NCBI RefSeq assembly: GCF_001719125.1
Contig: NZ_CP017006.1
Span: forward strand, 1,364,001 to 1,428,000
DNA: 64,000 bases
Source of the DNA: Sulfolobus sp. A20
GTDB lineage: Archaea; Thermoproteota; Thermoprotei_A; Sulfolobales; Sulfolobaceae
Direction: 5' to 3'
Shown: one piece after another, positions 1,724 to 60,788 of the stretch
Layout of the letters: each line of letters opens with the position of its first letter
Position numbering within the stretch: the stretch's first letter is position 1
The notes under the pieces: generated by a model
What the model was told of the DNA's origin: nothing
The model's database searches: none
What the model saw: the letters and a program-made list of their open reading frames with translations, nothing else
Made by a program: the position numbers and the translations under genes

Positions 1724-2668
1724 TTACCTAGACGCTAGATATAATTCCGCTTCACCTTCTCTAACTATTATCAATTTTTCGCTTTTACGTAAGTAGTTGA
1801 GTATAGCCTCTGCCGTAATTAATGCTTGCGGATATACTTTTCTTTTTATCCCATATTCTGCTAATAAATTATCCGTAAATTCTCCTAGTGTTTTAGGTTT
1901 ATCCAGAATTGATTCAGCTATGTCTATGAGCTCGAGTGCAGAATATAATGATGAGTATAAAAACTTATCTACGTCCGTACCCTCAATAATTCTTGAGTTA
2001 TTGGGCAAGTAATTATGGGCTGGAACTATAATATCTGGCCTCATTTTTATAAGCTTGTACACTGTCATCAAATATTCTTCTATTGACGAGATTTGTGGTA
2101 TAGAGTTAGTTTCCTCTCTACCCCTGATCCCGCTACCCTGAATTTCATCACCAGTAAAAAATACACTACCTACTTTACATATTATTGCTCCCGCTACGTG
2201 ACCAAAAGCTTCAAAACATTTGAATTCTGAATCGTTAGGCAACTCAGTGCTAGAAACTTTAGGCGATCCTAATTCCGTCTTTATAAGGTTAACGAATGAT
2301 TTACCATTTTCTTCTCCGATCCATTTTATAAATCTATTTGGAAAGAAACTATAAATAGCACTGTAATTGTCTGACAGTAACGACGCTGTTATTTTATGTG
2401 AAATAACGTTGACGCCTTTACTTGATAAGTATCCAGATCCACCGGCATGATCCAGATGCGCATGAGATATGATTGCACTATCTGGCAATTCTCCTATCTT
2501 ATTTATTATTGACTCTATCTGTATAGAAGTTGAGGTATCGAGTAAATATCTTCTATCCATTCTATTCACATGTAATAGATTAAGATCAACGTCATGATAT
2601 TCGGTAGCTATTAATGTAATTCCTTTATCTATCTCCTTAAGCTCTATCATAATATCACTTATATTCAT
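1724..2668 (-). CDS. Metallo-beta-lactamase-fold hydrolase
   Basis: A 314-residue MBL-fold hydrolase. The metal site is visible: His-x-His-x-Asp-His at residues 69-74, His157, Asp174 (Thr-Gly-Asp-Glu) and His218 (Pro-Ala-His-Asn). The family covers glyoxalase II, lactonases and thioesterases; the substrate cannot be read from sequence. It overlaps the UxuA-like gene upstream by 14 bases if the first ATG is used. The second ATG (codon 7, at 2650) lies 4 bases past the upstream stop and behind a GTGAT ribosome site, so it may be the real start. As last gene of a sugar-acid operon, a lactonase role is a reasonable guess but unproven. Confidence 0.8.
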   Translation of the reverse strand: MNISDIMIELKEIDKGITLIATEYHDVDLNLLHVNRMDRRYLLDTSTSIQIESIINKIGELPDSAIISHAHLDHAGGSGYLSSKGVNVISHKITASLLSDNYSAIYSFFPNRFIKWIGEENGKSFVNLIKTELGSPKVSSTELPNDSEFKCFEAFGHVAGAIICKVGSVFFTGDEIQGSGIRGREETNSIPQISSIEEYLMTVYKLIKMRPDIIVPAHNYLPNNSRIIEGTDVDKFLYSSLYSALELIDIAESILDKPKTLGEFTDNLLAEYGIKRKVYPQALITAEAILNYLRKSEKLIIVREGEAELYLASR

Positions 2669-3683
2669 AATTAGTTCCTAAACTTTCTATTGCCGCTCTA
2701 AAAAGTCCTTGAAGATACCCAATAGCATGTATCCTCCCCAAGATTGAATACCCTGGCATTGATAACTGTGTAGTATCCCCCAAAAGTGTGGGAGTGTGGT
2801 CTACTCTAAATGGACCGTAAAATCCATGTTTTACGTACTCCCTAATCTCCATAAATTGCCTAGTTAATCCTTCATCGATGAAAACCTCAACAAACTTTCT
2901 CTTATTTCCTATGACCTCTCTAAAATGCACAAAGAATACTCTACCTTTTTCTAGGAAACGACTAACTACAGCAACCTCATCATCTGCTATCAATGAAAAA
3001 ATTGAATGATCAAAAGTAATTCCATTATACTCGCTAGGAAATTCTGTTATTAGCCTTTCAAAAGCTTCTACACTATTCATAATTCTCGCTGTTCCTCTCA
3101 CTTCATCAATTGGGGGATCATCTGGATGAATAGCTAATTTAACATTTGCGTCTTCAGCTACTGGGAGTATCTCTTTGAGAAAGCTCTCTAAATTTCTCCA
3201 TAGAGTAGGTTTATCTATTTTTCCATACTTGGGCGGTGGAGTATTTTTTAAATCCTCCTCATCAAAGCCAGAAACTACCGCATCACCTCTTCCTTTTAAA
3301 GCAGTCCTTGTTCTGAGCCAATTTGTAGGCATCCAGTTGTAGCACCATATTGGTATTTTTAGCTTCCCCATATTCTCAATAAGTTTAAAAACGTACTCCT
3401 TTTGCTCTTCTTTCCCCGGTAAACCATAAATCAGTTTATCCATTGGTGGATTATCCTCTATTACGGTTAACTTAAAACCGGCATCCTCAACCATTCTCTT
3501 ATAGTTAGCTAAGGAAGCATAATCCCAAGGCTCATCAATTCTCCACTGTCTTTGGTCTTGATACCATCTAGGTAAAATACCTGTGGCTTCTTCGACACCG
3601 ATTTGTTTTAAAATTTGCCAAAAAGGGGTAGGAGAACTTTCAAGAAGTATTTCTGCAAGCCTAATCCTAGGAAGCTTCTGCAT
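2655..3683 (-). CDS. UxuA-like (mannonate dehydratase family) sugar-acid dehydratase
   Basis: A 342-residue TIM-barrel protein of the UxuA family, which dehydrates D-mannonate to 2-keto-3-deoxygluconate. Family signatures are Cys-Tyr-Asn-Trp-Met-Pro (114-119), Ile-His-Pro-Asp-Asp-Pro-Pro (185-191), Val-His-Phe-Arg (252-255), Arg-Val-Asp-His (293-296) and the closing Gly-Tyr-Ser-Ile-Leu-Gly-Arg block (311-317). Expected ligands His186, His253 and Asp295 are present. The metal-binding Cys of classical UxuA (Thr-Phe-Cys) is replaced by Asp225 followed by His226, so activity or substrate may differ. A TATA-like tttttataaag about 28 bases before the ATG suggests a leaderless start. It sits with an enolase-type dehydratase and a GlcS/GlcV pair, pointing to aldonate or uronate breakdown. 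Confidence 0.8.
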   Translation of the reverse strand: MQKLPRIRLAEILLESSPTPFWQILKQIGVEEATGILPRWYQDQRQWRIDEPWDYASLANYKRMVEDAGFKLTVIEDNPPMDKLIYGLPGKEEQKEYVFKLIENMGKLKIPIWCYNWMPTNWLRTRTALKGRGDAVVSGFDEEDLKNTPPPKYGKIDKPTLWRNLESFLKEILPVAEDANVKLAIHPDDPPIDEVRGTARIMNSVEAFERLITEFPSEYNGITFDHSIFSLIADDEVAVVSRFLEKGRVFFVHFREVIGNKRKFVEVFIDEGLTRQFMEIREYVKHGFYGPFRVDHTPTLLGDTTQLSMPGYSILGRIHAIGYLQGLFRAAIESLGTNYEYK

Positions 3684-3836: not shown

Positions 3837-4898
3837 TTATTTGAATATTTTTATTGAATTTTTCCTAACATATATTAAAACTTCTTCATCACTCCTCAAA
3901 GGATGATCAACATAAGTAACAATCTCATCACTACCCTCAATAGGCATAACAGTAATCCTAAACATACCACCTTGATAACCAACAACCTTAACCCTACCCT
4001 TACCAACCAAAACCCAATCATCCAAACTCAAAACATCCTTAGCCAACTTAACATCCTCTGGCCTAACACCAACAACAACCCTATCCCCACTATAACCACC
4101 AACAAAAGGAAACTTCAAACTACCAACAACAACACCCTCATCAGTAACCTTACCCTCCAACTCATTAATCTCACCAATCAAACTAGCAACCTCAACAGAG
4201 ACAGGATTATTATAAACATCCTCAGGCTTACCAACTTGAACAAGCCTACCCTTAACCAAAACACCAACACTATCAGCAATAGAAAAAATATCAGCAGGAT
4301 CATGACTAACAATAAGCAAAGTAACCCCCAACCTCCCTTGAACATCCTTAACCAAAGCCCTAGCACTATCCCTCATCCTAGCATCCAAATTACTAAAAGG
4401 CTCATCCAACAAAAGCAAAGAAGGATTCTTAACCAAAGCCCTAGCCAAAGCAACCCTCTGCTGCTGACCACCAGACAACTCCCTAGGATAATGACCCAAA
4501 ACATGAGAAATATCCAAAATCTCAGCAACCTCCTCAACCCTCCTCCTAATCTCACCCCTACTAAGCCTCATATTAGTCAAAGGAAAAGCAATATTCTCAA
4601 AAGCAGTAAGATTAGGATACAAAGCCCAAGTCTGAAAAACCATACCAATCCTCCTATCCTCAGGGGGAACAACAAGCCTACCATTAGAAGCAACAACCCT
4701 ATCATCAAACAAAAGCTCACCACTAGAAGGAACATCCAAACCAGCAACAATCCTCATAAAAGTAGTCTTACCAGCACCACTAGGACCCAAAACACCAAAC
4801 CTAGAACCACTCTCAACAACCAAACTAACATTATCCAAAGCAACAACAGAACCCCTCTTAAAAACCTTACTAATACTCCTAGCAACAATCCTAACCAA
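3837..4898 (-). CDS. GlcV-like sugar ABC transporter ATPase
   Basis: A 353-residue ATP-binding subunit of a carbohydrate ABC importer, closely resembling S. solfataricus GlcV along its whole length including the C-terminal regulatory beta domain (about 235-353). Walker A is Gly-Pro-Ser-Gly-Ala-Gly-Lys-Thr-Thr (38-46), Q-loop Gln89, signature Leu-Ser-Gly-Gly-Gln (141-145), Walker B Asp165-Glu166, H-loop His199. The start is TTG at 4898, behind a GAGGGTGTGAT ribosome site, 38 bases after the stop of the dehydratase gene. No permease gene lies nearby, so it must work with permeases encoded elsewhere. Codons end mostly in G or T, unlike its neighbours; the plus strand here is nearly free of G. 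This creates a long spurious antisense reading frame. Confidence 0.92.
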   Translation of the reverse strand: MVRIVARSISKVFKRGSVVALDNVSLVVESGSRFGVLGPSGAGKTTFMRIVAGLDVPSSGELLFDDRVVASNGRLVVPPEDRRIGMVFQTWALYPNLTAFENIAFPLTNMRLSRGEIRRRVEEVAEILDISHVLGHYPRELSGGQQQRVALARALVKNPSLLLLDEPFSNLDARMRDSARALVKDVQGRLGVTLLIVSHDPADIFSIADSVGVLVKGRLVQVGKPEDVYNNPVSVEVASLIGEINELEGKVTDEGVVVGSLKFPFVGGYSGDRVVVGVRPEDVKLAKDVLSLDDWVLVGKGRVKVVGYQGGMFRITVMPIEGSDEIVTYVDHPLRSDEEVLIYVRKNSIKIFK

Positions 4899-4936: not shown

Positions 4937-6175
4937 TTAAAGATCTATATCATCCCAATATTTTTTAGCTGCGTCAGTATCTAAGTCAATACCTAAACCT
5001 GGTTCATCATTTAACTTAATAAAACCATGATCAATTATTCTTTTTTTAGGCCTTACTATTTCATTCCAAAAAGGAAGATCATGAGCATGAAATTCCATTG
5101 CTCCAAGAGTATTCGATAATGATGATAAATGTGCTGTTGCCATAGTAGCTATGGGAGAACCTATATTATGAGGGGAAAATTCAATATCGTACATGGACGC
5201 TAACTCAATTATTCTTCTTCCTTCAATAATTCCCGTTTTCGCTATATCAGGTGTCCAAACTAGAATCTTTGATGGAATAAGATCTTTAAATTGCTGATAA
5301 GAGTAAAGGGTTTCTCCTATAGCTATAGGAGTATTACATCGCTCTGCAATAATTCTTAATTCATCAAAATTACTTAAGCCTATGCTAGCAGGAGTAGGGT
5401 CTTCTATCCATCTAAGCCTATATGGGCTAAGAGCCTTACATAACCTTAATACAGTATTCAAGTTATATCTCCAATGCAAATCTACCATTAAATCTATTTC
5501 GTTACCTATACTATCTCTTATAGCCTTAATTATTTCAATCATAAAATCAATATCCTTAAGTGATAGATCGCCAACTCTAATTCTCCCTAAATTTAAGTAA
5601 GGAGTAGGTATGTCTAAATCAAATTTTATCGCGGTATATCCTTCATTAACTAGATCTTTAGCTCTTTTTACGAAGGCTTCGACTGAATACTCCTTCTCCC
5701 ACTTATCCTCTGTAAGTCTTCCGCTAATTGGGATATTAGATCTTATTTCTGCATGTTTATTATCACATAATGATACTGGTAATAAGAGTGAATTAATCGC
5801 TTCTAATCCGTTACCAGCATGAGCATCAGCATATACCCTAATTTCATCCCTATCTCCTCCTAAAAACTTATATAACGGGATATTCAAGTATTTCGTAATC
5901 AAGTCATAAATTGCTATTATAGTTCCTGCTACTAAATGATGTGTTGTGCTCCCTGAGTATAATGTAGCGTATCTTAGTTTCTGTTCAATCCTATTAATCT
6001 TAAAGGCGTCTTCTCCAAGTAATAATTGTTTGAACTCACTCTCCATTCCCTTTAATCCGGGTGCTGGACCAGCCTCACCAACACCATAAAGGTCTTTAGA
6101 ATACACTTTAACAAAAGTCCACTCAAAATTAGCTTGAGCCGTAAAAACCTTAAAATCAGTTATCTTAAGCTCCAT
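4937..6175 (-). CDS. Enolase-superfamily sugar-acid dehydratase
   Basis: A 412-residue member of the mandelate racemase/galactonate dehydratase branch of the enolase superfamily. Residues expected for catalysis are present: Lys184-x-Asp186 (the KxD form also seen in Sulfolobus gluconate dehydratase), metal ligands Asp232, Glu258 and Glu288, and the His336/Asp310 dyad. His234 follows the first ligand. The likely reaction is loss of water from an aldonate to give a 2-keto-3-deoxy acid; which aldonate cannot be told. It lies between the GlcS-like and GlcV-like genes, exactly where the two permease genes glcT and glcU would be expected. It appears co-transcribed with the ATPase downstream. Confidence 0.88.
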   Translation of the reverse strand: MELKITDFKVFTAQANFEWTFVKVYSKDLYGVGEAGPAPGLKGMESEFKQLLLGEDAFKINRIEQKLRYATLYSGSTTHHLVAGTIIAIYDLITKYLNIPLYKFLGGDRDEIRVYADAHAGNGLEAINSLLLPVSLCDNKHAEIRSNIPISGRLTEDKWEKEYSVEAFVKRAKDLVNEGYTAIKFDLDIPTPYLNLGRIRVGDLSLKDIDFMIEIIKAIRDSIGNEIDLMVDLHWRYNLNTVLRLCKALSPYRLRWIEDPTPASIGLSNFDELRIIAERCNTPIAIGETLYSYQQFKDLIPSKILVWTPDIAKTGIIEGRRIIELASMYDIEFSPHNIGSPIATMATAHLSSLSNTLGAMEFHAHDLPFWNEIVRPKKRIIDHGFIKLNDEPGLGIDLDTDAAKKYWDDIDL

Positions 6176-6347: not shown

Positions 6348-8027
6348 TTAACATTTTTTAATAAAGGTAAAGTTTACATTTAAGTATTCCCTCTTTATTA
6401 CTTCGTTTAATAATATTACAGATCCTCCTAATAACGATATTATCAGTATTCCGGCATTAACATTTACGCTTTTACTACTCTTTAACCCATATGCCATTGG
6501 GTTCATTACCCATGGTGGATAATAGTTTGCGAATGGATGGTTTGGAAATCCTAAGTATCCTAAGCCTAGTTTTGCTGCTGCTAGCCATTCACTCTCCTCT
6601 TCATGCATCGCTGAGACTAGTGTTGAGTTCCAAGCTGACAAACCTGCATTACCGACTTGTTGTAGTGTTAGTAATCCAGAGTCTATTTGTGCGAAAACAT
6701 CATCAAATACTCCACCATCAGATAATTGATATACGAAGTCTTGAGGATTCTTAGAATCATTTATCAACTGTTGATAATCATACCATTGAGCAGGAGTATT
6801 GTAAAAGTCTGTGGAATTTTTATAGAAAGATACACCGACCCATTTTGCCCATGCTATTTGTCCTTGGTATGATGACCAGAAGTGGGCTAGTTGTAGAGCT
6901 TGTTGTTCTTGAGGACCTACTGGTATACCCATTGAATTAATTACTAGTGCATAGTAGTTTTGTGTTCCTGGGAATGGGGATTCTATTAGTGTTATGCTTG
7001 TGTTGTTTATGTATTGTGGTAGTGGTGGGTATGCTGATGTGTTTAGGAAGTCATATGCGTAGCCTGTTAGCCAGTTTCCATTTGCTTGGAATGCTACTTT
7101 TCCTTGTACGAGTAGTGTTAGTCCTTGTGTCCAAGTCATTGATTGCCATCCTGGGTAATCGTAGGATGTGAAGTTTAGGAACCAGTAGTTGGTCTCGTTT
7201 ATTAGTTTTTGGACTGTAGCGTTGTTTAAGTTTATGGTTCCATATATCATTTCGTCATATAATTGTGGTCCAGCTAGGGATAGGAATATGTCTTCCCATA
7301 GGTTGAATTGGTCCCATCCCCCATCTCCACCGGGTATTATCCATGGGTGAATTCCGTGGTTTGCCAACTGTACTGTATCATAAATTAGTGTACTCAAATT
7401 GTAGGGGAATGGTAAATTATACTCCCTTAATAACTGAGCATTAACATATATAAGAGATCCTCTACTTACACTTAAGGGGACTGACAACAGCGTACCGTTA
7501 TATGTTCCTGCTTGTAATACTTCGTATACTGCATTGTTGAATAGTCCCCATTGTTGGGCATAGGGTGTAACGTTAACAAATGAATTTACACCATTAGGCG
7601 CAGCCTCAACATAACTAATCATTTCCGGACCAAAATGTGTCTGAAAACCCGCTGGTGGTTTTCCAGCCTCTATTAGAGCTACTATTGCGTATTTAGCGTT
7701 TGTCCCACCAGCTCCAGGAACAATATAGGGTTGCATTTGTAATCCAGTAGTATTTTGAAATGCTTTCACTAGGTGTTCCAATCCAACCTTTCCTTCTGTT
7801 GCCCACCATGTGTAGAATACTATTGGTCCTGTTGTGCTTGTTGTCACTACTGGTGTTGTCGTGCTTGTTGTTATTGTGCTTGTTACTGTTGTTGTTACTA
7901 CTGTTGTTGTTGGTTTTCTTGTTAGTAGTACTCCTGCTACTGCCCCAATAACTACAATTATTACTACTACAGCAACAATTATGGCTATTTGTGTTGATGA
8001 TAAACCCTTAACTAAACTATATTTCAT
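6348..8027 (-). CDS. GlcS-like sugar-binding protein, copy 1 (SBP1)
   Basis: A 559-residue extracellular binding protein of the Sulfolobales sugar ABC systems. It starts with a class III signal peptide: a charged head, Lys-Gly as the predicted PibD cleavage site before Leu-Ser-Ser-Thr, then a hydrophobic stretch to about residue 36. A Thr/Ser-rich linker follows (about 38-68), then a solute-binding domain very like GlcS, including Pro-Gly-Ala-Gly-Gly-Thr-Asn-Ala-Lys-Tyr and the Trp-rich sugar-binding loops. A second hydrophobic segment lies near the C-terminus. The 5' 190 bases plus promoter are near-identical to SBP2 at 11166, and so is part of the 3' end; the middle has diverged. The central part uses many codons ending in A or C. 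No permease genes accompany it. Confidence 0.92.
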   Translation of the reverse strand: MKYSLVKGLSSTQIAIIVAVVVIIVVIGAVAGVLLTRKPTTTVVTTTVTSTITTSTTTPVVTTSTTGPIVFYTWWATEGKVGLEHLVKAFQNTTGLQMQPYIVPGAGGTNAKYAIVALIEAGKPPAGFQTHFGPEMISYVEAAPNGVNSFVNVTPYAQQWGLFNNAVYEVLQAGTYNGTLLSVPLSVSRGSLIYVNAQLLREYNLPFPYNLSTLIYDTVQLANHGIHPWIIPGGDGGWDQFNLWEDIFLSLAGPQLYDEMIYGTINLNNATVQKLINETNYWFLNFTSYDYPGWQSMTWTQGLTLLVQGKVAFQANGNWLTGYAYDFLNTSAYPPLPQYINNTSITLIESPFPGTQNYYALVINSMGIPVGPQEQQALQLAHFWSSYQGQIAWAKWVGVSFYKNSTDFYNTPAQWYDYQQLINDSKNPQDFVYQLSDGGVFDDVFAQIDSGLLTLQQVGNAGLSAWNSTLVSAMHEEESEWLAAAKLGLGYLGFPNHPFANYYPPWVMNPMAYGLKSSKSVNVNAGILIISLLGGSVILLNEVIKREYLNVNFTFIKKC

Positions 8028-8132
8028 AAGTAAACGGCAACCTAATGAAATAATAAAGTATAGCTCTTATCAGTAAAAAGGATAACATATTAAAATATGA
8101 AAAACATAAAAATAACCAATAACAAACAAAAT
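7838..8132 (-). repeat. Inverted repeat, left copy (promoter and 5' end of SBP1)
   Basis: This 295-base stretch is, on the opposite strand, near-identical to 11061-11355; I noticed one mismatch by eye (gcacgacaac against gcacaacaac). It covers about 105 bases of promoter and the first 63 codons of the sugar-binding protein. Identity stops abruptly at both ends. It includes an inverted repeat with six-base arms (CATATT and AATATG, 8086-8099) and a TATA-like actttattatttc. Confidence 0.92.
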
Positions 8133-8146
8133 CTAATAATATAATA

Positions 8147-8908
8147 CTATTTCTTTGGGCTACTTAATGGGATTAGTGCTGTTAATCCACCATCAATTGT
8201 TACACAAACCCCGTTTATAAATGAGGCAAGATCAGAAATTAAGAATGCTGTAAGATATCCAATTTCCTCAGGTTCTCCAACCCTTCTCATAGGATATGCT
8301 TCGCCCCACTCTCTTATTTTTTCCTCTATATGTTCTTTGCCTACTTCTTCTTCCGCTGCCCACTCTAACAATGGTGTTCTTATGGATCCCGGACATATTG
8401 CGACAGCTCTAATTATAGGGGCGTAATCAACTGCAATACTTCTAGTTAAGCCTAATAATGCATGTTTGCTAGTAGTATAAGCGGCAACTCTGCGTTGAGT
8501 TGCAAAAGCTTGTATTGATGCTACGTTAACTATTACACCTTTACCTTGCTTTAACATATACGGTATAGAATACTTAGACATTAAGAAGGGGCCTTTCACA
8601 TTGACATTAATTATTTTATCCCAATCCTCTTCACTTGTTTCATGAACTGAACCATAAATTTCTATACCAGCGTTATTGACTATTGCGTCAATCCTGCCAT
8701 ATTTTGTGATAATATAATCTATTCCCTTAATAACTTCTTCCTTTTTTGAAACATCAGTGCTAATATACTCGACATTCATGGAAGGCTCTTTTTTATCAAA
8801 AATTATTACATTTACACCTTCGTTCATAAGAACATTAACAATTCCCTTACCTATACCCTGGGATCCTCCAGTTACGATTACAACTTTATTTTTAATATTT
8901 AGGTCCAT
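8147..8908 (-). CDS. Short-chain dehydrogenase/reductase
   Basis: A 253-residue classical SDR oxidoreductase. It shows the nucleotide-binding Thr-Gly-Gly-Ser-Gln-Gly-Ile-Gly (13-20), Asn-Asn-Ala-Gly (78-81), and the catalytic Ser131, Tyr144 and Lys148 (Tyr-x-x-x-Lys). The C-terminal Gly-Gly close is typical of sugar and polyol dehydrogenases of about 250 residues. A TATA box (ctttatatagc) about 28 bases before the ATG points to its own leaderless promoter. It lies between the two inverted sugar-binding protein genes, with an RraA-like aldolase next to it, so oxidation of an imported sugar or sugar acid is the likely job. The substrate is not identifiable. Confidence 0.88.
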   Translation of the reverse strand: MDLNIKNKVVIVTGGSQGIGKGIVNVLMNEGVNVIIFDKKEPSMNVEYISTDVSKKEEVIKGIDYIITKYGRIDAIVNNAGIEIYGSVHETSEEDWDKIINVNVKGPFLMSKYSIPYMLKQGKGVIVNVASIQAFATQRRVAAYTTSKHALLGLTRSIAVDYAPIIRAVAICPGSIRTPLLEWAAEEEVGKEHIEEKIREWGEAYPMRRVGEPEEIGYLTAFLISDLASFINGVCVTIDGGLTALIPLSSPKK

Positions 8909-9154
8909 ATTTCTAAATGAGAATTTAGGCTATATAAAGTATGACTCTAACAACTGATAATCAGATACCAATGTAATATAAAATTATTGATAATATTTGA
9001 GCTAATGTATTTTATATAATTAAAATTTGTCATTATATGAATAATTTTTATCTTGATCTTTCTTATCCACTAATCGAATTATTTCTAGAATTAATTGTTT
9101 CAATATGATACATTATATAAAACTAAAAGTGATATAAAAATTGTATTTGTATAT

Positions 9155-9802
9155 TTATAATACTCTATATTTTTTCCACATTTCTGATAACGAACTTCCC
9201 TTAAGAATTTCGGTTCTTACTATATCTTCCTTTTTGGCTTTTTCTAAAGCCTTAGATATAACGATATCCTCTATATTTTTAGGAATAACAACTACCCCAT
9301 CAAGATCTGCAAATATTAGGTCACCAGGTTCTATAATAGCTTCACCAGAGTATACCCTACAGTTATAACAAATTGCTTCTGCTCTGCCTTTTGAATCTAA
9401 GGGAAGCGCGCCACAAGAGAACACTGGAAAATTGATGGAAAGTATCTTATGTGTATCCCTATTATAGCCATCTATTATAGCTCCCCTACTTCCTCTGATC
9501 TTTGCAGCATTAGAAAATAATTCCCCCCATAACGCAGTATTCTTAGATTCTGAAACTATAACCACAACATCATTAGGCTTAATATTACTTATTGCCTCTA
9601 GCATAATTTTATATGGTTCAATAGGCTCCTCTTTAACTTCTTTAACAAGTATAGGTAAAGCTCTACCAATAATCCTCATATCATTTCTTAAAGGCTTAAT
9701 ACATGCGCTCATAACATGTTTTCTATATCCTAAATCATCTAGAATATCTGAAATAACTGCAGAATATAATTTTCTCTCTACTTCTTCAAAATCTTGTATC
9801 AT
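9155..9802 (-). CDS. RraA-like / HMG-aldolase-type protein
   Basis: A 215-residue member of the RraA/demethylmenaquinone-methyltransferase-like superfamily. Many members are metal-dependent class II aldolases or oxaloacetate decarboxylases acting on 2-keto acids. The diagnostic segment Gly-Ser-Arg-Gly-Ala-Ile-Ile-Asp-Gly (103-112) with Asp111, Arg115 and Asp116 is present, as is the later Asp-Gly-Val-Val-Val-Ile-Pro. A TATA-like catttattaag about 27 bases before the ATG suggests a leaderless message. Placed among dehydratases and an SDR, cleavage or decarboxylation of a keto acid is the best guess. True RraA (an RNase E inhibitor) is unlikely in an archaeon. Confidence 0.82.
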   Translation of the reverse strand: MIQDFEEVERKLYSAVISDILDDLGYRKHVMSACIKPLRNDMRIIGRALPILVKEVKEEPIEPYKIMLEAISNIKPNDVVVIVSESKNTALWGELFSNAAKIRGSRGAIIDGYNRDTHKILSINFPVFSCGALPLDSKGRAEAICYNCRVYSGEAIIEPGDLIFADLDGVVVIPKNIEDIVISKALEKAKKEDIVRTEILKGSSLSEMWKKYRVL

Positions 9803-9903
9803 GTTAATAAGTTCTTAATAAATGGCTTATATTCATTTCGCTATGTGTGAGAAAGTGTGGATATAATGCCGTAATAAAGGTAAAATTTATTAACCCCTTT
9901 TAC

Positions 9904-10600
9904 ATGTGTGGAGAACAATTTCATTCATCCCCATAAAATTTTATTCCAACTTATGCTAATAGATTTAGAGTAAATTGTATTATTTTGTATTATTGTGGAA
10001 GAATATTTTTAGCCATCTCGTTATTGTGTTTCTTGTTGAGTCCCATGTGAAGTGTGAGTCCATTCTTGCCAGTTTTAAACTTTGAATAATAGTTCTACTA
10101 AGCTTCTCTTGCCAAACGTTTCAACCTCGTGTTTAAACCAAGAGAATGCCTTATAGGCTTATCGTGTAACCTTATCCCTCCAATTCTCAAGCTTAATTTA
10201 ATATTACGTAAACGTGGAAACCACTCCTAAGGCATGAAGAATTAGCCCAGACTCGTAATACCTAACAACCCATCTCACCATTAACCCTCAAAACCTTATC
10301 AACGAGTAAATGATCCCCATCCTTAATATCAATCTTAAGCTCATAATTAACATTAGCCAACTTGCGAAGAGCAAGGTAGCGTGAGGTAGTAAAGTCCTTT
10401 AGCCTAGCAAGTAAGAGGTAAAAAGCAAAGGTAATCCAAGGAGTGAAACCTAGGCTTAAAAGGGTAGAGATAATTTGGGAAATCAAACCTATTCATATTC
10501 TCGTCCCAATAAATGACTCGCCCTTACCCTAAAAATACTTTTTCCACAATAAAGAAAATTCAATTTATATCAAAACAACCAAATTGTTTTCCACGCACTC
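9904..10600 (-). mobile_element. Decayed insertion sequence, family A, copy 1
   Basis: A remnant of about 0.7 kb whose ends are inverted repeats related to those of the copies at 21.96-22.64 kb and 60.24-60.79 kb: left gtgtggagaacaattt, right aaattgttttccac. Inside are transposase pieces with stops and frameshifts, such as the reading at 10262-10486 on the minus strand. The IS family is not recognised with confidence. Between 9803 and 9903 the sequence contains a fragment resembling the family B end (gtgtggatataatgccgt, 9851-9868). Confidence 0.7.
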
Positions 10601-10985
10601 ACTTGAGTATGGCAAGTTTTGTTGAGCCGTGGGACAAGGCTTGAGTCCAAGGCAACATCAAAATTCGTAGACTTCGACATACTTCAAAAAGGACTATAAA
10701 ATATATTGCCCAGAGGATGGATAAGCGATTATTACAACGTGCACTTCACCTTAAGAAACCACACTGTAATACACCCAGTAAATGAGGGCATATCGATGAG
10801 GGACAGACTAGTTAAAAGAGCAACAAAGGCAGTAAGTCTAGAAACACTCAAATACACACTAGCAATATACACGTTTGAATCGGGACTATAACCAGAAATC
10901 TATGACTTAATGACGATACTGTACAAAAAGGCGTCAAACTATCTAATAGCGTTTATACAACATTTTAAGTAAGTTTTAAATAAAT
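10601..10985 (+). mobile_element. Decayed transposase fragment (IS family B)
   Basis: Transposase-like sequence on the plus strand, with the reading at 10706-10891 and broken frames on either side. It matches 1336-1560 (shared acaaggcttgagtccaaggc block near 10633) and part of 14.4-14.6 kb. No terminal repeats are visible at its edges and no intact gene is left. From 10986 to 11060 nothing is recognisable. Confidence 0.6.
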
Positions 10986-11060
10986 TGTAGGTATAATCTT
11001 TATTTATCCATTTAACAAGTAGTATTTATACTATCGTAGAATTTGACTTAAGAGATTTTT

Positions 11061-11355
11061 ATTTTGTTTGTTATTGGTTATTTTTATGTTTTTCATATTT
11101 TAATATGTTATCCTTTTTACTGATAAGAGCTATACTTTATTATTTCATTAGGTTGCCGTTTACTTATGAAATATAGTTTAGTTAAGGGTTTATCATCAAC
11201 ACAAATAGCCATAATTGTTGCTGTAGTAGTAATAATTGTAGTTATTGGGGCAGTAGCAGGAGTACTACTAACAAGAAAACCAACAACAACAGTAGTAACA
11301 ACAACAGTAACAAGCACAATAACAACAAGCACAACAACACCAGTAGTGACAACAA
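11061..11355 (+). repeat. Inverted repeat, right copy (promoter and 5' end of SBP2)
   Basis: Partner of 7838-8132 in inverted orientation; 2,928 bases separate the two. The match starts at attttgtttgttattgg and ends inside the Thr/Ser-linker codons. It carries the same inverted repeat (CATATT/AATATG, 11094-11107) about 60-70 bases before the ATG and the same TATA-like actttattatttc near 11134-11146. Both genes should therefore share transcription control. Confidence 0.92.
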
Positions 11356-12863
11356 CAAGTATAACACAAGCTAAAGTAAATATAGTATTCTATAATTGGC
11401 TGGGTTCTGTAAATCAAGATGCATTTAATAGTTTTATCCCATATTTCGAGAAGTTGTATCCTAATTATATGTTTCAATCCTATTTAGTTCCAGGTGCTGG
11501 AGGAGTAAACGCAAAATATGCTATATTGGCATTAATAGAGGCTGGCAAACCTCCTACTACTTTTCAAACTCATTATGGTCCAGAAATGATTAGTTATGTT
11601 GAAGCTGCACCTAATGGATCATATAATTTTGTAAATATGACTCCTATAGCGCAAAACATGGGCTTATTTAAGTACGTAGTTCCTTCAGTGCTTGAGGCTG
11701 GAGCATATAATGGCACTTTATTTTCATTACCTATAGATGCAGGTGAAGGTGGACTTCTCTATGTCAATATTAAATTATTAAGGGAATATAACTTGCCATT
11801 ACCTACCAACTTATCCGCTTTAACCTACGATACTATTCAATTATACAATCACGGAATTCACCCGTGGATAATACCTGGTGGGGACGGGGGATGGGACCAA
11901 CTTAATCTGTGGGAGAATATATTTTTAGCATTAGGTGGACCTAGACTATATAACGAAATGACTTATGGTACTATAAATTTCAATAATATTACTGTACAAA
12001 AAATAATCAATCAGACCAACTACCTCTTCTTAAATTACAGTTCGTATAACTATCCTGGATGGCAGCCTATGCAATGGACTCAAGGCATTGCCTTATTAAT
12101 CCAAGGACAAACAGCTTTTCAGACCAACGGTGACTGGGTAACAGATTATGCTTACGATTTTCTTAATACTACAATTTATCCTGCTACTGAGCCTTATATA
12201 AGTTGGCCTAATGTTTCTGTAGTAGTAGAACCTTTCCCAAGTACACAAAACTACTTCGCATTAGTAGTAGACTCTGTAGCGGTTCCTAAATCTCCTTATC
12301 AAAATGCCGGAATAACTTTAGCAGAGACTTGGGCATCATATCAAGGACAAGAATTATGGACTAAATGGAAAATGATAGGGTATTACACCAATGACACTGA
12401 TTTTTATGTTACTCCTGCGCAATGGTACAATTATGAGAGGCTTCTAAACACTTCACCCCAAGACTTCGTATATCAATTATCTGATGGTGGAGTATTTGAT
12501 GACGTCTTTGCTGAATTAGATAGTGGAATTTTAACTCTAGCTCAAGTTGGTAATGCAGGTTTATCAGCTTGGAACTCAACACTAGTCTCAGCAATGCATG
12601 AAGAGGAGAGTGAATGGCTAGCGGCAGCAAAACTAGGCTTAGGATACTTAGGATTTCCAAACCATCCATTTGCAAACTATTATCCACCATGGGTTAAAGA
12701 TCCAGCAGCATATGGGTTAAAGAGTAGTAAAAGCGTAAATAGTGATACATCAAGCTTATCATTAATACTAATACTATTAGGCTCAACAATATTGGCAACT
12801 GAAGTATTAATAAACAAAAAATTCATAAGCAAGGAAATGATCACCAAACTAATTAAAAGATAA
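11166..12863 (+). CDS. GlcS-like sugar-binding protein, copy 2 (SBP2)
   Basis: A 565-residue extracellular sugar-binding protein. Its first 63 residues (class III signal peptide, hydrophobic segment and Thr linker) are the same as in SBP1. Residues about 430-520 are also nearly the same, including the run around Asn-Ala-Gly-Leu-Ser-Ala-Trp. The region between has diverged in sequence but aligns along its length, with the same Pro-Gly-Ala-Gly-Gly and Pro-Gly-Gly-Asp-Gly-Gly-Trp-Asp-Gln landmarks, so a different sugar is likely bound. A C-terminal hydrophobic segment follows. There is no ABC permease or ATPase beside it; it probably shares membrane components with other Glc/Ara systems. Regulator R2 lies convergent, 93 bases past its stop. 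Confidence 0.92.
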   Translation: MKYSLVKGLSSTQIAIIVAVVVIIVVIGAVAGVLLTRKPTTTVVTTTVTSTITTSTTTPVVTTTSITQAKVNIVFYNWLGSVNQDAFNSFIPYFEKLYPNYMFQSYLVPGAGGVNAKYAILALIEAGKPPTTFQTHYGPEMISYVEAAPNGSYNFVNMTPIAQNMGLFKYVVPSVLEAGAYNGTLFSLPIDAGEGGLLYVNIKLLREYNLPLPTNLSALTYDTIQLYNHGIHPWIIPGGDGGWDQLNLWENIFLALGGPRLYNEMTYGTINFNNITVQKIINQTNYLFLNYSSYNYPGWQPMQWTQGIALLIQGQTAFQTNGDWVTDYAYDFLNTTIYPATEPYISWPNVSVVVEPFPSTQNYFALVVDSVAVPKSPYQNAGITLAETWASYQGQELWTKWKMIGYYTNDTDFYVTPAQWYNYERLLNTSPQDFVYQLSDGGVFDDVFAELDSGILTLAQVGNAGLSAWNSTLVSAMHEEESEWLAAAKLGLGYLGFPNHPFANYYPPWVKDPAAYGLKSSKSVNSDTSSLSLILILLGSTILATEVLINKKFISKEMITKLIKR

Positions 12864-12956: not shown

Positions 12957-13628
12957 TTATATTATATCATCATCTGAAAAGGCATTTTTCAAGATTTTCT
13001 TTATTCCATTCCGAATATGGAAATTAGCAGTAGTTTTGCTAAGTTTAAAGTTTTTAGCTATGTGATCTAGGTCTATCTTCCGAGGGGTATCGAAAAAACC
13101 ATTTTTGTAAGCGAATTCCAGCAACAATTTTTCATTTGGTGTTAAATAATCATTTTCACTTAATGTTTTTAATTTATTTTTATCATTTTTATTTATGTTA
13201 AACCTCAGTATTCTTCCCTTATCTCTAAGAATATCATATATATTTTCTACTTGAGTTTTATTATATCTTATAAAATATACGTCAAATATTTTTAATCCAT
13301 CTTTAACAACAGACTTCCTTAATATCCCGTTTCTCTCAAGAAATACATACTTTACCATTTCCTCGTAATCTCCTAAGAATATTATATCATATTGAATATT
13401 ATTTATTTTAATTATATTTATTACTTTCTTTATATTACTAGATTTATTTAATTTTTTGATAAAATCTCTAATTTCGTCTTTTTTGCCTTCAACTCTAATC
13501 ACTTCTAAGCTATATCCCTTTTCTTTATACGGATAAAAGTATCTCGAAGTTACTATAACATCAAAGCTTCTAGTGAGTAAACTCCAATCTCCATAGTGCT
13601 CAAGAGCTACATTTAATCTAGCTATCAT
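12957..13628 (-). CDS. HTH_10 (Bat-like) transcriptional regulator, paralogue R2
   Basis: A 223-residue predicted DNA-binding protein. The N-terminal motif His-Tyr-Gly-Asp-Trp-Ser has Trp15. The C-terminal HTH (about 167-217) contains Leu-Thr-Pro-Asn-Glu, Gly-Phe-Phe-Asp-Thr-Pro-Arg, Leu-Ser-Lys-Thr-Thr and His-Ile-Arg-Asn-Gly. It runs tail-to-tail with SBP2, which suggests it senses the same sugar or controls that gene. A perfect 17-base palindrome sits just upstream of its own TATA-like element, consistent with self-regulation. The fold call is firm; ligand and targets are inferred. Confidence 0.82.
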   Translation of the reverse strand: MIARLNVALEHYGDWSLLTRSFDVIVTSRYFYPYKEKGYSLEVIRVEGKKDEIRDFIKKLNKSSNIKKVINIIKINNIQYDIIFLGDYEEMVKYVFLERNGILRKSVVKDGLKIFDVYFIRYNKTQVENIYDILRDKGRILRFNINKNDKNKLKTLSENDYLTPNEKLLLEFAYKNGFFDTPRKIDLDHIAKNFKLSKTTANFHIRNGIKKILKNAFSDDDII

Positions 13629-16308: not shown

Positions 16309-16947
16309 TTATTGATTATATAGAAAATTCGATATTATCTTCCTTATTGCATTCCTTAAGTGGAAATTAAGTGTAGTTTTGGTAATACCAAATTCTTCAG
16401 CTAACTTATCAAGAGTTATGTTTCTTGGATGTTCAAAGAACCCTCTATTGTAAGCTTCTATGATTATTCGGGACTCTAAAGGAGTAAGTAGCTGTATAGC
16501 GTCAACTATATCATATTTACGTCTCTGATTTTTAATTAAGTTAACATTTTTCATTTTAGCTAAAGAATTTGTAACCGTCTCTAAGTTATTATCATTTAAA
16601 GAAAATATGGAAAATTTTTCTACTCCATCCTCTACCACTAGAGAGCTTGCTATAACATTATTTTGAAATAATACTCTTCTTATTGAGTCATTATAATTCC
16701 CCATAAAACTTATTTCAAATAAATTTCTTCTTATTTTTTTAGTATTTATAACCTTATATATGTTATTATGTTTTTTTAAATTACTTATGAACTTAGATGG
16801 ATCATTACCATAAAATAACATAATCTCCAGATTAATATGATTAATTGGATTTATTAGATAATATAAGCTTATTAGCTTAACCTCTAAACCTTTAGTAAGT
16901 TCAGTCCAATCTCCACTATGGATTAATTCAAGATTAGCCTTTATCAT
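16309..16947 (-). CDS. HTH_10 (Bat-like) transcriptional regulator, paralogue R3
   Basis: A 212-residue paralogue with His-Ser-Gly-Asp-Trp-Thr at the N-terminus (Trp14) and a C-terminal HTH (about 152-207) containing Leu-Thr-Pro-Leu-Glu, Gly-Phe-Phe-Glu-His-Pro-Arg, Gly-Ile-Thr-Lys-Thr-Thr and His-Leu-Arg-Asn-Ala. It is the closest in motif to R2. It lies tail-to-tail with the MFS gene at 14692, its probable target. A weak dyad (16998-17020, outer arms TCTC and GAGA) lies upstream of its TATA-like gcttattaacc, the same layout as at R2. Confidence 0.82.
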   Translation of the reverse strand: MIKANLELIHSGDWTELTKGLEVKLISLYYLINPINHINLEIMLFYGNDPSKFISNLKKHNNIYKVINTKKIRRNLFEISFMGNYNDSIRRVLFQNNVIASSLVVEDGVEKFSIFSLNDNNLETVTNSLAKMKNVNLIKNQRRKYDIVDAIQLLTPLESRIIIEAYNRGFFEHPRNITLDKLAEEFGITKTTLNFHLRNAIRKIISNFLYNQ

Positions 16948-17536: not shown

Positions 17537-18676
17537 TTAATTTCCTAGTAAACTTAGATACAGATCGTTCAATTCTCTATAAACCTCGTTCTCAGAGGTT
17601 TCTCCCCTTAAATATTCATGTAATATGATAGATCCTTCTAATTGGAATCTTGGAAAATTATGATGTCTAGGTCGTATATATGAATTCTCGACAGTCAGTA
17701 GAGTATCTAAAAAGAAATTATTCGCCTTATTATTTACTTCATCATCAAGCCACACATATAAGTTTCCAGGTTGTCCACCATTTTCGAAGTACAAACTCTT
17801 CTGGATATCCTTTCTCATTAGCCATACTGAAAATTTTATAGCTTCTTCTTTATATCTAGAGTAATTTGATATCGCTATTCCAGCTCCTCCTAAGACGCTT
17901 CCTATTGGACCTGACGAGGTTGAGGGAATATTAGTAAATTTTATTACATTTTTTCTAAATCCCCTTATTGAATAGTTTACGTATCCAAAAATTAAAGGAA
18001 CATAGCCTATTTCGTCAGTCTCGCTCATTTTCTCTAGGACTAAAATTGGATTCATTTTTAAAGAATCTTGGTGTAAGTATTTCAGTAAATTTGACATAAA
18101 TTTCAAAACTTTTATTGATATACTTTTGTTTGCGAAATATCTTTTATGATATAGTGGAAAGTCTCCATAATTCGAGAGTAAAGTTAGAAAGCTGCATAAT
18201 GCATGAACTGGGCTTAATGGGAGAGCTATTTTAAAATTTTTAGATTGTAAAGCTAAGTCTACTACTTCATCCCACGTTTTAGGAACTTTTTTAACAATGT
18301 CTTCCCTATATGCTGAAAATATACTTGAAACGTCTATAGGTAACGCCCATATATGATTATCATATATATAACTTACTAGAGACCTCTTTATAGAGTTTCT
18401 ATAGATCTCTTGTAGATCTCTCTCATTTACTATTAAATCTATAGGAGTAAATGCATTTATGCTTACTGAATATCCTATAGTAGGATGATCGATAACAAGA
18501 AGATCATAATTATTAACGTATTTTTCAAAGAAAGGTCCCTCGAATTCCTCTAAAGATATGGTATTCCATTCAATTTTAATCTGATTATTAACGTTTTCTG
18601 TATAATATTTAGAGGAAGCAATAAGGCCACTATAACCTCGTATATGATTCCAAGTTAAACCTTTCAGCGTTATCAT
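17537..18676 (-). CDS. Solute-binding-protein-like protein without signal peptide
   Basis: A 379-residue protein with the fold signatures of family 1 extracellular solute-binding proteins: Trp-Ala-Leu-Pro-Ile-Asp-Val (about 110-116), Lys-Thr-Trp-Asp-Glu-Val (about 134-139), and a glycine-rich Gly-Pro-Ile-Gly-Ser-Val-Leu-Gly-Gly-Ala-Gly segment. It begins directly with the mature domain; no signal peptide, lipobox or membrane segment is present, so it is predicted cytoplasmic. The gene follows the CoA-transferase gene on the same strand by 19 bases and is probably co-transcribed. A role as an intracellular ligand or acyl-CoA-related sensor is a guess; loss of the signal from a former transport protein is the alternative. 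Confidence 0.7.
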   Translation of the reverse strand: MITLKGLTWNHIRGYSGLIASSKYYTENVNNQIKIEWNTISLEEFEGPFFEKYVNNYDLLVIDHPTIGYSVSINAFTPIDLIVNERDLQEIYRNSIKRSLVSYIYDNHIWALPIDVSSIFSAYREDIVKKVPKTWDEVVDLALQSKNFKIALPLSPVHALCSFLTLLSNYGDFPLYHKRYFANKSISIKVLKFMSNLLKYLHQDSLKMNPILVLEKMSETDEIGYVPLIFGYVNYSIRGFRKNVIKFTNIPSTSSGPIGSVLGGAGIAISNYSRYKEEAIKFSVWLMRKDIQKSLYFENGGQPGNLYVWLDDEVNNKANNFFLDTLLTVENSYIRPRHHNFPRFQLEGSIILHEYLRGETSENEVYRELNDLYLSLLGN

Positions 18677-21954: not shown

Positions 21955-22642
21955 ATGTGTGTGGACAACAATTTGGTTGTTTTGGTATAAATTGAATTTT
22001 CTTTAGATAGAAAAGTATTTTTAGAGTTATTTATTGGGGCGAGAATAGGTTTGATTTTCTCGCCCTCACCCAAATTATCTCTACCCTTTTAAGCCTAGGT
22101 TTCATTCCTTGGATGAGATTGCATTAGCCTTGCCGTCTTACTTGCTAGGCTTGTCAAGTTGGAGGACTTCATTGCCTCACACTACCTTGCTCTACTATTT
22201 TCATAAGTTGGCTAATGTTAATTACGAGGTCAAGGTTGATGTTAAAGAGGGGGATCATTTGCTCGTTGATGAGGGTTAATGGTGAGATGAGTTGTTAAGC
22301 ATTACCAGTCTGGTTGTATTCTTCATGTTCTTAAGAGTGGTTTCGACGTCTACGTAAGCTTGAGAATTTGAGGGATAAAGTTATCTTCATACACGGTTAA
22401 GTCTACAAGACATTCTCTTGGTTTAATACAGAGGTTGAAACTTTTGGCAAGAGAAGCTTAGCAAATATTCAGAAGCCTAAAACATAGGCTAGCGAGCATG
22501 GACTTCACATGGAACTCAACAGGGAACACAATAACGAGATGGCTAAAAATATTCTTCAATACAGTTTACTCGAAATCTATTGGCATAAGTTGGAATAAAA
22601 TTGAATTTTATGGGGTGGATGAAATTATTGTCCACACACTTT
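21955..22642 (+). mobile_element. Decayed insertion sequence, family A, copy 2
   Basis: About 0.69 kb bounded by inverted repeats: left tgtgtggacaacaattt, right aattattgtccacacact. It lies in the opposite orientation to the copies at 9.9 and 60.2 kb. Inside, pieces of a transposase with many stops align with those copies, for example the Gly-Glu-Met piece near 22290 and the Glu-Met-Ala-Lys-Asn-Ile-Leu piece near 22537. From 22643 to 22780 nothing recognisable is present. Confidence 0.75.
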
Positions 22643-36528: not shown

Positions 36529-37221
36529 ATGTTAAAGGCTTATAAAATGAGGCTTCAAGTCGAGCATCCTACGTGCTGGACGTTTAACACGTTAAATTAT
36601 GACGTAAAAGCTCACGTTAAGTACTTATTTCCCATAGTTTCCAAGAACTTGATTTTCGAGATAGCTGAGATCACTTCTGAAAGCAGAAGTGATGTAAGTG
36701 ATTTCATAAACTTAATGAATAGTAAGAAATATAGACGTAACCTAAGTCTAATTGACGTCGAACGTTCAAGATTGTCAAAAACTGCATTAATGTATTACTT
36801 CAAACTTTACGACGGATCCATAACGAGAACTTTACTTAGTAATGGTGTAATAATAGGTAATGTATTAGCCTATAATGGAGTAGAGGAATGGGATCTGTAT
36901 TATTTAGGAAATGATATAGACTCTGTAATGGGTAATATTTCAAAGGAATTAAGTAAAGTGGAAGTTAAGATAGAGGATTTAACTTATGACAGATTTGAAA
37001 TGGAGGATATGAAAAAGGAAATGTTCTTGATAAATGGTTTAACTTTTACGGAAAAGAAGGTATTATATGCTGCATATAAGATGGGTTACTTTGACTATCC
37101 TAAAAACATAAAGCTGGATGATTTAGCTAAATCTTTTGGTGTTACTAAAGTAGCCTTAGATAGGACGATAAGAAATGGGTTAAGAAAGATATTATCACAG
37201 ATATTCGATAATGCTAAATAA
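36529..37221 (+). CDS. HTH_10 (Bat-like) transcriptional regulator, paralogue R4
   Basis: A 230-residue paralogue. The N-terminal motif is His-Pro-Thr-Cys-Trp-Thr (Cys16, Trp17). The C-terminal HTH (about 170-226) has Phe-Thr-Glu-Lys-Lys, Gly-Tyr-Phe-Asp-Tyr-Pro-Lys, Gly-Val-Thr-Lys and Ile-Arg-Asn-Gly. A taggagga ribosome-like site precedes the ATG. It lies 213 bases upstream of the sugar ABC operon on the same strand, which is its probable target. Confidence 0.82.
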   Translation: MLKAYKMRLQVEHPTCWTFNTLNYDVKAHVKYLFPIVSKNLIFEIAEITSESRSDVSDFINLMNSKKYRRNLSLIDVERSRLSKTALMYYFKLYDGSITRTLLSNGVIIGNVLAYNGVEEWDLYYLGNDIDSVMGNISKELSKVEVKIEDLTYDRFEMEDMKKEMFLINGLTFTEKKVLYAAYKMGYFDYPKNIKLDDLAKSFGVTKVALDRTIRNGLRKILSQIFDNAK

Positions 37222-37434: not shown

Positions 37435-39267
37435 ATGATAAATAAGAAAAATAGAGCTATATCAAGGACGATAGTAGCAATTATAGTAGTGATAATAGTC
37501 ATAGCAGTTGTCGGAGGAGTAAGTGGTTATTATTTAACTAGGCACCCTTCAACAACTACCACATCTATTTCCACTCCTACCTCATCCGTTTCTGTCACTA
37601 CAACTACTTCTTCTACTTCTTCTATTACATCATCACAAGTGGTAGATTTCATAAACCCATGGGGTGCTGAAGATCCTGTAGGTCTGAAATGGATACAAGG
37701 TAATTTCTCCATATACTATCCTGGCTTTTCTGTTCAGTATACTTCCTTACCTGGAGCTAGTGGCGTAGAAGAGAGATATGTGGTAATTAATGATATAGAA
37801 GCTGGAAAGTTACAAGGAGCTTTTTGGGCTCATGGAGGTCCAGAAGTGTTATCTTACGTGGAGTTATTACCTAATCCTCATGACTTATACAATATGACGC
37901 CGTTATTGCAACAAGAAGGTGCATTCCAAAAGGGCTCTTTAGCTACTATGTTAGCTATTTCGTACAACGGTACGATTTTCGGATCACCAACTAATGTTCA
38001 CAGGGCTGAAGAATTGTACTTTAATCCTCAAATATTAAGAAAATACAACTTACCTATTCCTACTAATCTAAGTTTACTAATTTACGATACTCAACAGCTG
38101 GAGGCTCACGGAATAACTCCATGGGCTGTGTCAGGTGCGGAAGGCGGATATGAGCAATTACACTTATGGTTTGCAATATTCCTTTCAGTTGCAGCCCAAT
38201 ATTATGGTCCAGCTGGTGCTGCCAAGTTATCTAATGAACTAATGTATGGTGTGTTAAACTTAGATAATACCACAGTACAAAAGATTATTAATCAAACTGA
38301 CAATATATTCGTACAATTTGTTAGTCCAGGTGCTGTTATTCCAAGTTGGCAGAGTCAATCCATATGGTCAGCTCTGGCATTAGTCATAAAAGGACAAGCA
38401 GTATTTGAAGCTGGTGGAAATTGGTTAGCTGAGTATGCCGCGATTTGGTATAATACTACTACATATCCAGCCACTGAACCTTACTTGAATTGGACGAACA
38501 TTACATTAATGGCATTACCATTCCCCGGCACACAAGGAGTTTATGTAATAGATGTAGACTCTGTAGCTATACCTACTGTGAATAATCCACAAGAACAAGC
38601 TGCAATCAATTTTGTTAAATTCTGGTCCTCTTATGAAGGGCAAAAAATATGGACCTATTATAAGGGAGTGACGTTCTGGGATAACGCAACTGACTATTAC
38701 GCTACGCCTATGCAGTGGTATGATTATCAAGCATTGTTTAACACTCCGATTCAGAACTTTACTTGGGCATTTGCTGATGGTACATTGTTTGATGATGTAT
38801 TTTACTTCCTAATAAGTCAAGAACTTAACTTACAAGAACAAGGTTCTTCGTACATTCCAACATTTAACGCAGCTTTACTAAAAGCTGAGAATATGACCTT
38901 CCACGAATGGCAAATAGCAGCTAAGGATGGTTTTGGATTTGTAGGCAGACCCGGGCAACCATTTGGCAACTATTTACCACCATGGGTTAATCCTCAAACT
39001 TATACTTATAACTCAAGCTATACTCCGTCATTCTTACTATCACCTCCAAAGTATATGTTGCCTTATCTTAAGATGTTAACCTCACCTAAGAGTAGCTCAA
39101 ATCATGGTATAGCAGTTCTAACAAACGAAATTAATTTCATCGCGTTTACTGTAATATATCTGTTACTGCTAGCTGACAAAAAATATTATATTTTTCTGAA
39201 AGATTTTGTAAGTCAAATCAAGGTATCTCTTTTTTTGAAACTTTTTATATTTAAGAACGATTATTAA
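37435..39267 (+). CDS. AraS/GlcS-type sugar-binding protein
   Basis: A 610-residue extracellular sugar-binding protein. The class III signal has a basic head, Arg-Ala as probable PibD cleavage site before Ile-Ser-Arg-Thr, then a hydrophobic segment to about residue 34 and a Ser/Thr linker (about 38-66). The binding domain aligns with SBP1 and SBP2 but is clearly distinct, and a C-terminal hydrophobic segment (about 565-585) follows. A TATA-like tataatattaa is seen at about 37389-37399. No ara-box (AACATGTT) lies in front of it, so it may not be the arabinose system. First gene of a complete four-gene ABC operon. Confidence 0.92.
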   Translation: MINKKNRAISRTIVAIIVVIIVIAVVGGVSGYYLTRHPSTTTTSISTPTSSVSVTTTTSSTSSITSSQVVDFINPWGAEDPVGLKWIQGNFSIYYPGFSVQYTSLPGASGVEERYVVINDIEAGKLQGAFWAHGGPEVLSYVELLPNPHDLYNMTPLLQQEGAFQKGSLATMLAISYNGTIFGSPTNVHRAEELYFNPQILRKYNLPIPTNLSLLIYDTQQLEAHGITPWAVSGAEGGYEQLHLWFAIFLSVAAQYYGPAGAAKLSNELMYGVLNLDNTTVQKIINQTDNIFVQFVSPGAVIPSWQSQSIWSALALVIKGQAVFEAGGNWLAEYAAIWYNTTTYPATEPYLNWTNITLMALPFPGTQGVYVIDVDSVAIPTVNNPQEQAAINFVKFWSSYEGQKIWTYYKGVTFWDNATDYYATPMQWYDYQALFNTPIQNFTWAFADGTLFDDVFYFLISQELNLQEQGSSYIPTFNAALLKAENMTFHEWQIAAKDGFGFVGRPGQPFGNYLPPWVNPQTYTYNSSYTPSFLLSPPKYMLPYLKMLTSPKSSSNHGIAVLTNEINFIAFTVIYLLLLADKKYYIFLKDFVSQIKVSLFLKLFIFKNDY

Positions 39268-39290
39268 CTATATATAAAGGTGATATAAAT

Positions 39291-40148: not shown

Positions 40149-40153
40149 GTAAA

Positions 40154-41044: not shown

Positions 41045-41046
41045 AA

Positions 41047-60243: not shown

Positions 60244-60788
60244 TGTGTGGACAACAATTTAATTTACCCCATATTCTAACTTATGCCAATAGATTTCGAG
60301 TAAATTGTATTGAAGAATATTTTTAGCCATCTCTTTATTGTGTTTCTTGTTGAGTTCCATGTGAAGTTCATGCCTGCTAGTTTTAGGCTTCTGAACAAGA
60401 GAATGTCTTGTAGACTGATGCCTTATCGTGTAGGAAGATAACTTTATCCTTCCAATTCTCAAGCTTAATACCATTTACGTAAACGTAGAAGCTATCACTC
60501 CTAAGAACATGAAGAATACACAGACTCGTAATGCCTAACAACCCATCTCACCATTAACCCTCATCAACGTAGTGTGAGGCAATGAAGTCCTCCAATTTGG
60601 CAAGCGAGTAAGACGTCAAGGCTAATCTCGTCCAAGGAATGAAAGTAAGTTTAAAAGGATAAGAGATAATTTGGGTAAGCGAGGAAATCAAACCTATTCT
60701 CATCCTAATAAATAACTCTAAAAATACTTTTCCACAATAAGGAAAATTCAATTTATATCAAAACAACCAAATTGTTGTTCACACACAA
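60241..60788 (-). mobile_element. Insertion sequence remnant, family A, copy 3
   Basis: About 0.55 kb with clear inverted ends TTGTGTGTGGACAACAATTT and, reversed, tttgtgtgtgaacaacaatt. Internal sequence aligns with the copies at 9.9 and 21.96 kb but is shorter, and transposase pieces (60259-60474, 60554-60751) are broken. It interrupts vapC. A degenerate mini-hairpin (60786-60822, agccatttatggatggggag) lies directly after it. Confidence 0.8.

Follow-up and report, generated by a model that had tools for sequence, protein, structure and literature searches.

Gene conversion has recurrently overwritten the ends of a set of GlcS-type sugar-binding protein genes in a Sulfolobaceae archaeon, with different tracts in each of two species, and the pocket loops of the encoded proteins retain gene-specific residues in both. 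Two of these genes, SBP1 and SBP2, face away from each other in the window, by which we mean the whole stretch of 64,000 nucleotides analysed here, which is part of a closed 2.69 Mb chromosome; two further close copies, P3 and P4, lie elsewhere in that chromosome, at 1,543,721 and 2,515,983, respectively. The explanation that we consider highly probable for the whole is concerted evolution of the module ends by ectopic conversion, with the ligand pockets kept and a permease that the copies would have in common. The pair and its conversion blocks are as follows.

6348-8027, minus strand: SBP1, GlcS-type sugar-binding protein, open reading frame of 559 aa with a class III signal peptide (KGLS followed by S) and a T-rich linker
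11166-12863, plus strand: SBP2, GlcS-type sugar-binding protein, open reading frame of 565 aa with signal peptide and linker as in SBP1
7838-8132, minus strand: 5' conversion block of SBP1 (promoter and codons 1-63), identical to 11061-11355 at 294/295 bases
11061-11355, plus strand: 5' conversion block of SBP2, in which codons 3-63 are also 98.9-100% identical to P3 and P4
6462-6746, minus strand: 3' conversion block of SBP1, 89% identical to 12456-12740 and dominated by species-type sites
12456-12740, plus strand: 3' conversion block of SBP2; the tract shared with P3 extends to about 12841

Both proteins scored above the curated cut-off of 500 bits of the NCBIfam equivalog model NF040930 (GlcS glucose-binding), SBP1 with 749 bits (E=1e-225) and SBP2 with 721 bits (E=7e-217). 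While a Pfam search gave no match for either protein, both structure comparisons returned the two-lobed sugar-binding fold of the Thermus thermophilus glucose/galactose-binding protein (GBP; 2b3b) as the top match, with Z 43.1 and rmsd 2.1 over 386 residues for the SBP1 model (matched region 67-481). SBP2 matches 2b3b with E=4e-20. Class III signal peptides have a basic n-region, a [KR][GA][LIF][ST] site and a hydrophobic helix after the site, and these features can be read from the sequence MKYSLVKGLSSTQIAIIVAVVVIIVV. The pilin-like KGLS signal peptide and the T-rich linker are present in all copies (SBP1, SBP2, P3 and P4).

The original prediction had described promoters and first 63 codons that are near-identical over 295 bases, a last third that is also close and a strongly diverged central ligand-binding part, so that signal peptide, linker, promoter and C-terminus are uniform around a varied binding part, and our analysis bears out this picture. 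The 5' inverted repeat consists of about 105 bases of upstream DNA and codons 1-63, contains a single mismatch at repeat offset 272 and loses identity abruptly at both borders, and the 3' block reaches 89% identity over 285 bases. Between these blocks, amino-acid identity of SBP1 and SBP2 ranges from 21 to 90% per 30-codon window and fourfold sites are mostly 10-67% identical, which means that they are saturated. Divergence along the two genes, followed by sliding identity, is not uniform, confirming the mosaic. The longest run of identical polymorphic codons between SBP1 and SBP2 is 28 (codons 1-51), a length that 0 of 5000 permutations reached (p=2e-4). Despite this, SBP1 and SBP2 are not the closest relatives of one another: P3 is 73% identical to the SBP2 protein, versus 69% for SBP1.

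The non-coding part of the 5' block is a property of the pair, as the 100 bases upstream are common to SBP1 and SBP2 only and not to P3 or P4. Within it lie two copies of a motif:

8051-8076, minus strand: pair-specific promoter motif ending in a TATA-like element, SBP1 copy
11117-11142, plus strand: pair-specific promoter motif, SBP2 copy

When seven genomes of the genus were searched for this 26-base motif with at most 3 mismatches, it was found only in the two pair promoters here and in the two of a sister species of the same genus (G012). This confinement to pair promoters in two species argues for an old shared promoter that was homogenised in each species, and SBP1 and SBP2 are probably co-regulated.

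G012 also has the pair, likewise divergent, together with a P3 counterpart, and no P4 counterpart was identified there; this genome and G012 are the two species with the full set on which the comparison rests. Signal-peptide DNA is 97-100% identical within one genome versus 76-77% between both species, with different residues fixed in each. In a tree of the first 50 codons the copies of this genome form one clade (96/95) and those of G012 another (91/95), and the C-block tree places the G012 pair together at 100/99. The tree of the binding islands instead pairs SBP2 with the minus-strand gene of G012 (100/100) and SBP1 with the plus-strand one (99/99). AU tests rejected a tree of the ends in which SBP2 is constrained to join its G012 orthologue (p=2.4e-4), and likewise a tree of the islands that unites all four copies of this genome (p=5.6e-36). 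Informative sites of the SBP1/SBP2 quartet followed the same division, with species-type to orthology-type counts of 31:0 in codons 0-49, 16:186 in codons 50-449 and 53:5 beyond. The tracts themselves differ: the 5' borders run from -104 to +190 here versus -49 to +152 in G012, where the 3' tract extends to the stop codon. Permutation tests on identical runs gave p=2e-4 (the floor) for most within-genome pairs and p=0.048 for SBP1/P3, two genes that are alike almost throughout.

Since the centres are orthologous and the ends species-specific, the duplications that gave rise to SBP1, SBP2 and P3 predate the split from G012, so that the three genes were already distinct by then, and homogenisation of the ends took place independently in the two lineages. 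The suggestion of gene conversion between the copies, made earlier for the pair, is thereby strongly supported. Two rival accounts were rejected by the region trees and by the identities within and between species. If the genes had duplicated recently in each species and the binding part had then diverged fast under positive selection, with no gene conversion, one genome would also show similar ends and different centres. The trees, however, give full support to orthology of the centres between the species, the centres are saturated at synonymous sites, and the rejected own-genome clade contradicts this account further, so that we regard it as extremely unlikely. Constraint alone, in which the ends resemble each other through conservation of DNA or protein, could appeal to the well-conserved C-block protein of the family; we give it practically no credence, given the contrast in signal-peptide DNA within and between species, the different fixed residues and the non-coding upstream DNA that lies inside the homogenised block. 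One consequence is that trees built from whole GlcS proteins blend two histories. Homogenised ends were not found in G020, a member of another genus with three paralogues, and hence are not a general habit of the family.

The genes that accompany SBP1 are listed below.

2655-3683, minus strand: mannonate dehydratase-like protein (UxuA; NF003027, below cut-off)
3837-4898, minus strand: GlcV-type ABC ATPase, near-identical to the P3-locus GlcV (NF040933; tree)
4937-6175, minus strand: enolase-superfamily protein, sugar-acid dehydratase-like (PF13378; NCBIfam matches weak, below cut-off)
8147-8908, minus strand: SDR, aldose dehydrogenase-like (NF005007), upstream of SBP1 in both species (synteny)
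9155-9802, minus strand: RraA-like aldolase family protein, between the repeats (PF03737)

According to curated models, the P3 locus combines GlcS with GlcT, GlcU and GlcV, an arrangement that G008, of the same family, and five further species of the genus have kept. Its GlcV differs from that of the pair cluster at 2 positions in 1075 bases (99.8%). In the GlcV tree this sequence joins that of the pair cluster in G012 at moderate support, which makes the P3 locus the probable recipient of a GlcV conversion; no such conversion was seen in G012. In G012, a TnpB-type element has inserted into the GlcV of the pair cluster (L068:469-2827). All that a third member of the genus (G013) retains is a GlcV fragment containing a stop codon; a close GlcS is absent, and the system looks lost there. 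The SBP1 cluster is flanked by a 52-base direct repeat (87%; 1347-1398 and 10622-10673). Non-coding relics that are related to one another and probably derive from an insertion sequence lie at 9905-10598, 21956-22639 and 60272-60788, and also near P4 (L067:9277-10078). The window further contains six related HTH_10-type regulators (161-865, 12957-13628, 16309-16947, 36529-37221, 42477-43133 and 48468-49145), most of which adjoin a transport or catabolic gene set, and a short SBP_bac_8-type protein without obvious signal peptide that adjoins a CoA-transferase-like gene (17537-18676).

The original prediction went further and proposed that recombination between the 5' repeats would invert the SDR/RraA segment, that crossovers elsewhere would exchange binding domains between promoters, and that this could be a device for diversifying surface sugar receptors. 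Near-perfect 295-base inverted repeats 2.9 kb apart are indeed competent for recombination, but in G012, the one comparable species, the SDR precedes the SBP1 orthologue on the same strand, as it does here, and this order is conserved although the surroundings of the pair are otherwise rearranged between the two genomes. The open reading frames beside the repeats include no recognisable invertase or site-specific recombinase, only relics of IS and TnpB elements. As both arms carry the same promoter, a flip would leave the expressed receptor unchanged and only re-orient the SDR/RraA segment. Shuffling of binding domains was rejected as well, since no island changes partner in a sliding nearest-neighbour comparison and the islands track gene identity across species with the support given above. 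We therefore consider a switch or diversification device very unlikely; the exchange that we observe keeps the common parts uniform, which is the opposite of diversification.

Between SBP1 and P3 conversion has reached further, as the two are alike in the core as well in each species. Their differences in this genome fall mostly into short islands (codons about 80-93, 116-130, 175-193, 322, 364-367 and 389-410) and the tail. We compared these positions with the glucose contacts of Thermus GBP, which we take to be those given by Cuneo et al. 2006; contact residue numbers up to 278 matched the expected letters in the alignment, and the assignment of K312 to position 397 is a gap-free extension of it. 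One paper (PMC3454389) confirms His348 as well as the fact that residues forming hydrogen bonds are conserved in that family. Nineteen amino-acid differences between SBP1 and P3 are retained in both species, and 15 of these 19 lie at most 3 residues from contact equivalents, versus 0/19 homogenised sites in the same domain (p=3e-7). Because the identity of H119 as a contact was settled only after the alignment had been inspected, we repeated the comparison without it and again obtained an enrichment (11/19 versus 0/19 within 3 residues, p=6e-5). The retained SBP1/P3 differences include N364/D (D278), V397/K (K312) and S188/H (H119; Thermus GBP numbering in brackets).

Such islands could also arise if the ends convert simply by being the most alike and the islands are merely too diverged to recombine, with no selection for the pocket. 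Conversion depends on identical sequence, and conservation is highest at the ends; synonymous divergence within the islands of this genome is high, and the GlcV copy shows that tracts of about 1 kb occur. Synonymous differences within the islands are raised in G012 too, where the islands had not been defined (15/64 versus 39/385, p=0.006), as expected of unconverted DNA, with the caveat that orthologues likewise differ more at synonymous sites inside islands than outside. Isolated residues (322; 364-366) are kept amid homogenised SBP1/P3 stretches in both species, however, where a mismatch in one codon or a few would be no obstacle to conversion, and the kept differences coincide with pocket positions. 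On balance we judge conversion without pocket-preserving selection to be improbable, and favour concerted evolution in which selection would remove converts that lose a pocket.

Thermus GBP resembles SBP1 and SBP2 in fold across the whole domain, with the aligned W8, W224 and W244 retained, yet identity is 20% and pocket equivalents differ. In SBP1, N replaces D278, V replaces K312 and S replaces H119; in SBP2, L replaces W9 and G replaces H119. Given these changes, glucose appears doubtful as the ligand of either protein, and automatic annotation of SBP1, SBP2 and P4 as 'glucose-binding GlcS' probably names the wrong ligand. The aldose dehydrogenase, mannonate-dehydratase-like, enolase-superfamily dehydratase-like and RraA-like neighbours suggest aldose oxidation, with mannose as one candidate sugar. 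SBP1 and SBP2 probably bind aldoses other than glucose and feed the adjoining aldose-dehydrogenase and sugar-acid-dehydratase genes.

No permease gene was found near SBP1, SBP2 or P4. GlcT and GlcU at P3 are the only close permease pair of the genome, the next GlcT-like permease being 45% identical, and this pair probably serves several receptors. A complete second GlcS-like system at 37435-42156 comprises a binding protein, two permeases and an ATPase; its binding protein (37435-39267), which is 44% identical, also carries the NCBIfam label GlcS and has its own permeases, has no tract in common with the SBP copies.

Overall, recurrent ectopic conversion has overwritten two parts of the copies, the end with promoter, signal peptide and linker and the conserved C-terminal block, in tracts that differ between the species; in SBP1 and P3 it has also reached the core between the pocket loops. 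The copies would use the single GlcT/GlcU pair of P3 and be anchored alike at the surface, so that converting what they have in common may be tolerated or favoured and would keep anchor and docking parts uniform. More tentatively, and with less confidence than in this explanation, one could imagine that GlcTU serves at least four receptors of differing specificity and that conversion is selected to keep anchor, promoter and docking interchangeable while the pockets are shielded, in which case the conversion-resistant residues might constitute a specificity code. The genes offer a well-resolved archaeal case of gene conversion against selection along one protein, in which residues that resist conversion point to specificity, and they predict a Sulfolobaceae archaeon in which a single ABC permease is supplied by several receptors.

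A literature search found no case of gene conversion among substrate-binding proteins. The P3 locus resembles the GlcSTUV glucose ABC transporter and bindosome of Saccharolobus solfataricus (PMC4187195) in having GlcS, GlcT, GlcU and GlcV, and the KGLS signal peptide and T-rich linker occur in all copies; SBP1, SBP2 and P4 differ as extra GlcS paralogues with altered pocket residues and without adjoining permeases. In the bacterial release factors RF1 and RF2, conversion is confined to the domain of common function and spares the specificity part (PMC4530459), as here, but our case involves up to four dispersed copies, conversion of both ends and the promoter, and islands resolved to single residues in two species. 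Concerted evolution of mtrA-1 and mtrA-2 in methanogens (PMC4632066) and other long-lasting prokaryotic cases (PMC6053082) likewise feature paralogues of one genome that are closer than orthologues in one domain and distinct in the rest. Whereas homogenisation of the common domain of mtrA is almost complete, the genes studied here keep a gene-specific ligand-binding domain, and it is anchor, linker and C-block that are homogenised. The process is of a known kind, combining domain-limited conversion and concerted evolution, and the sugar-binding protein genes described here are an unusually clear case of it.
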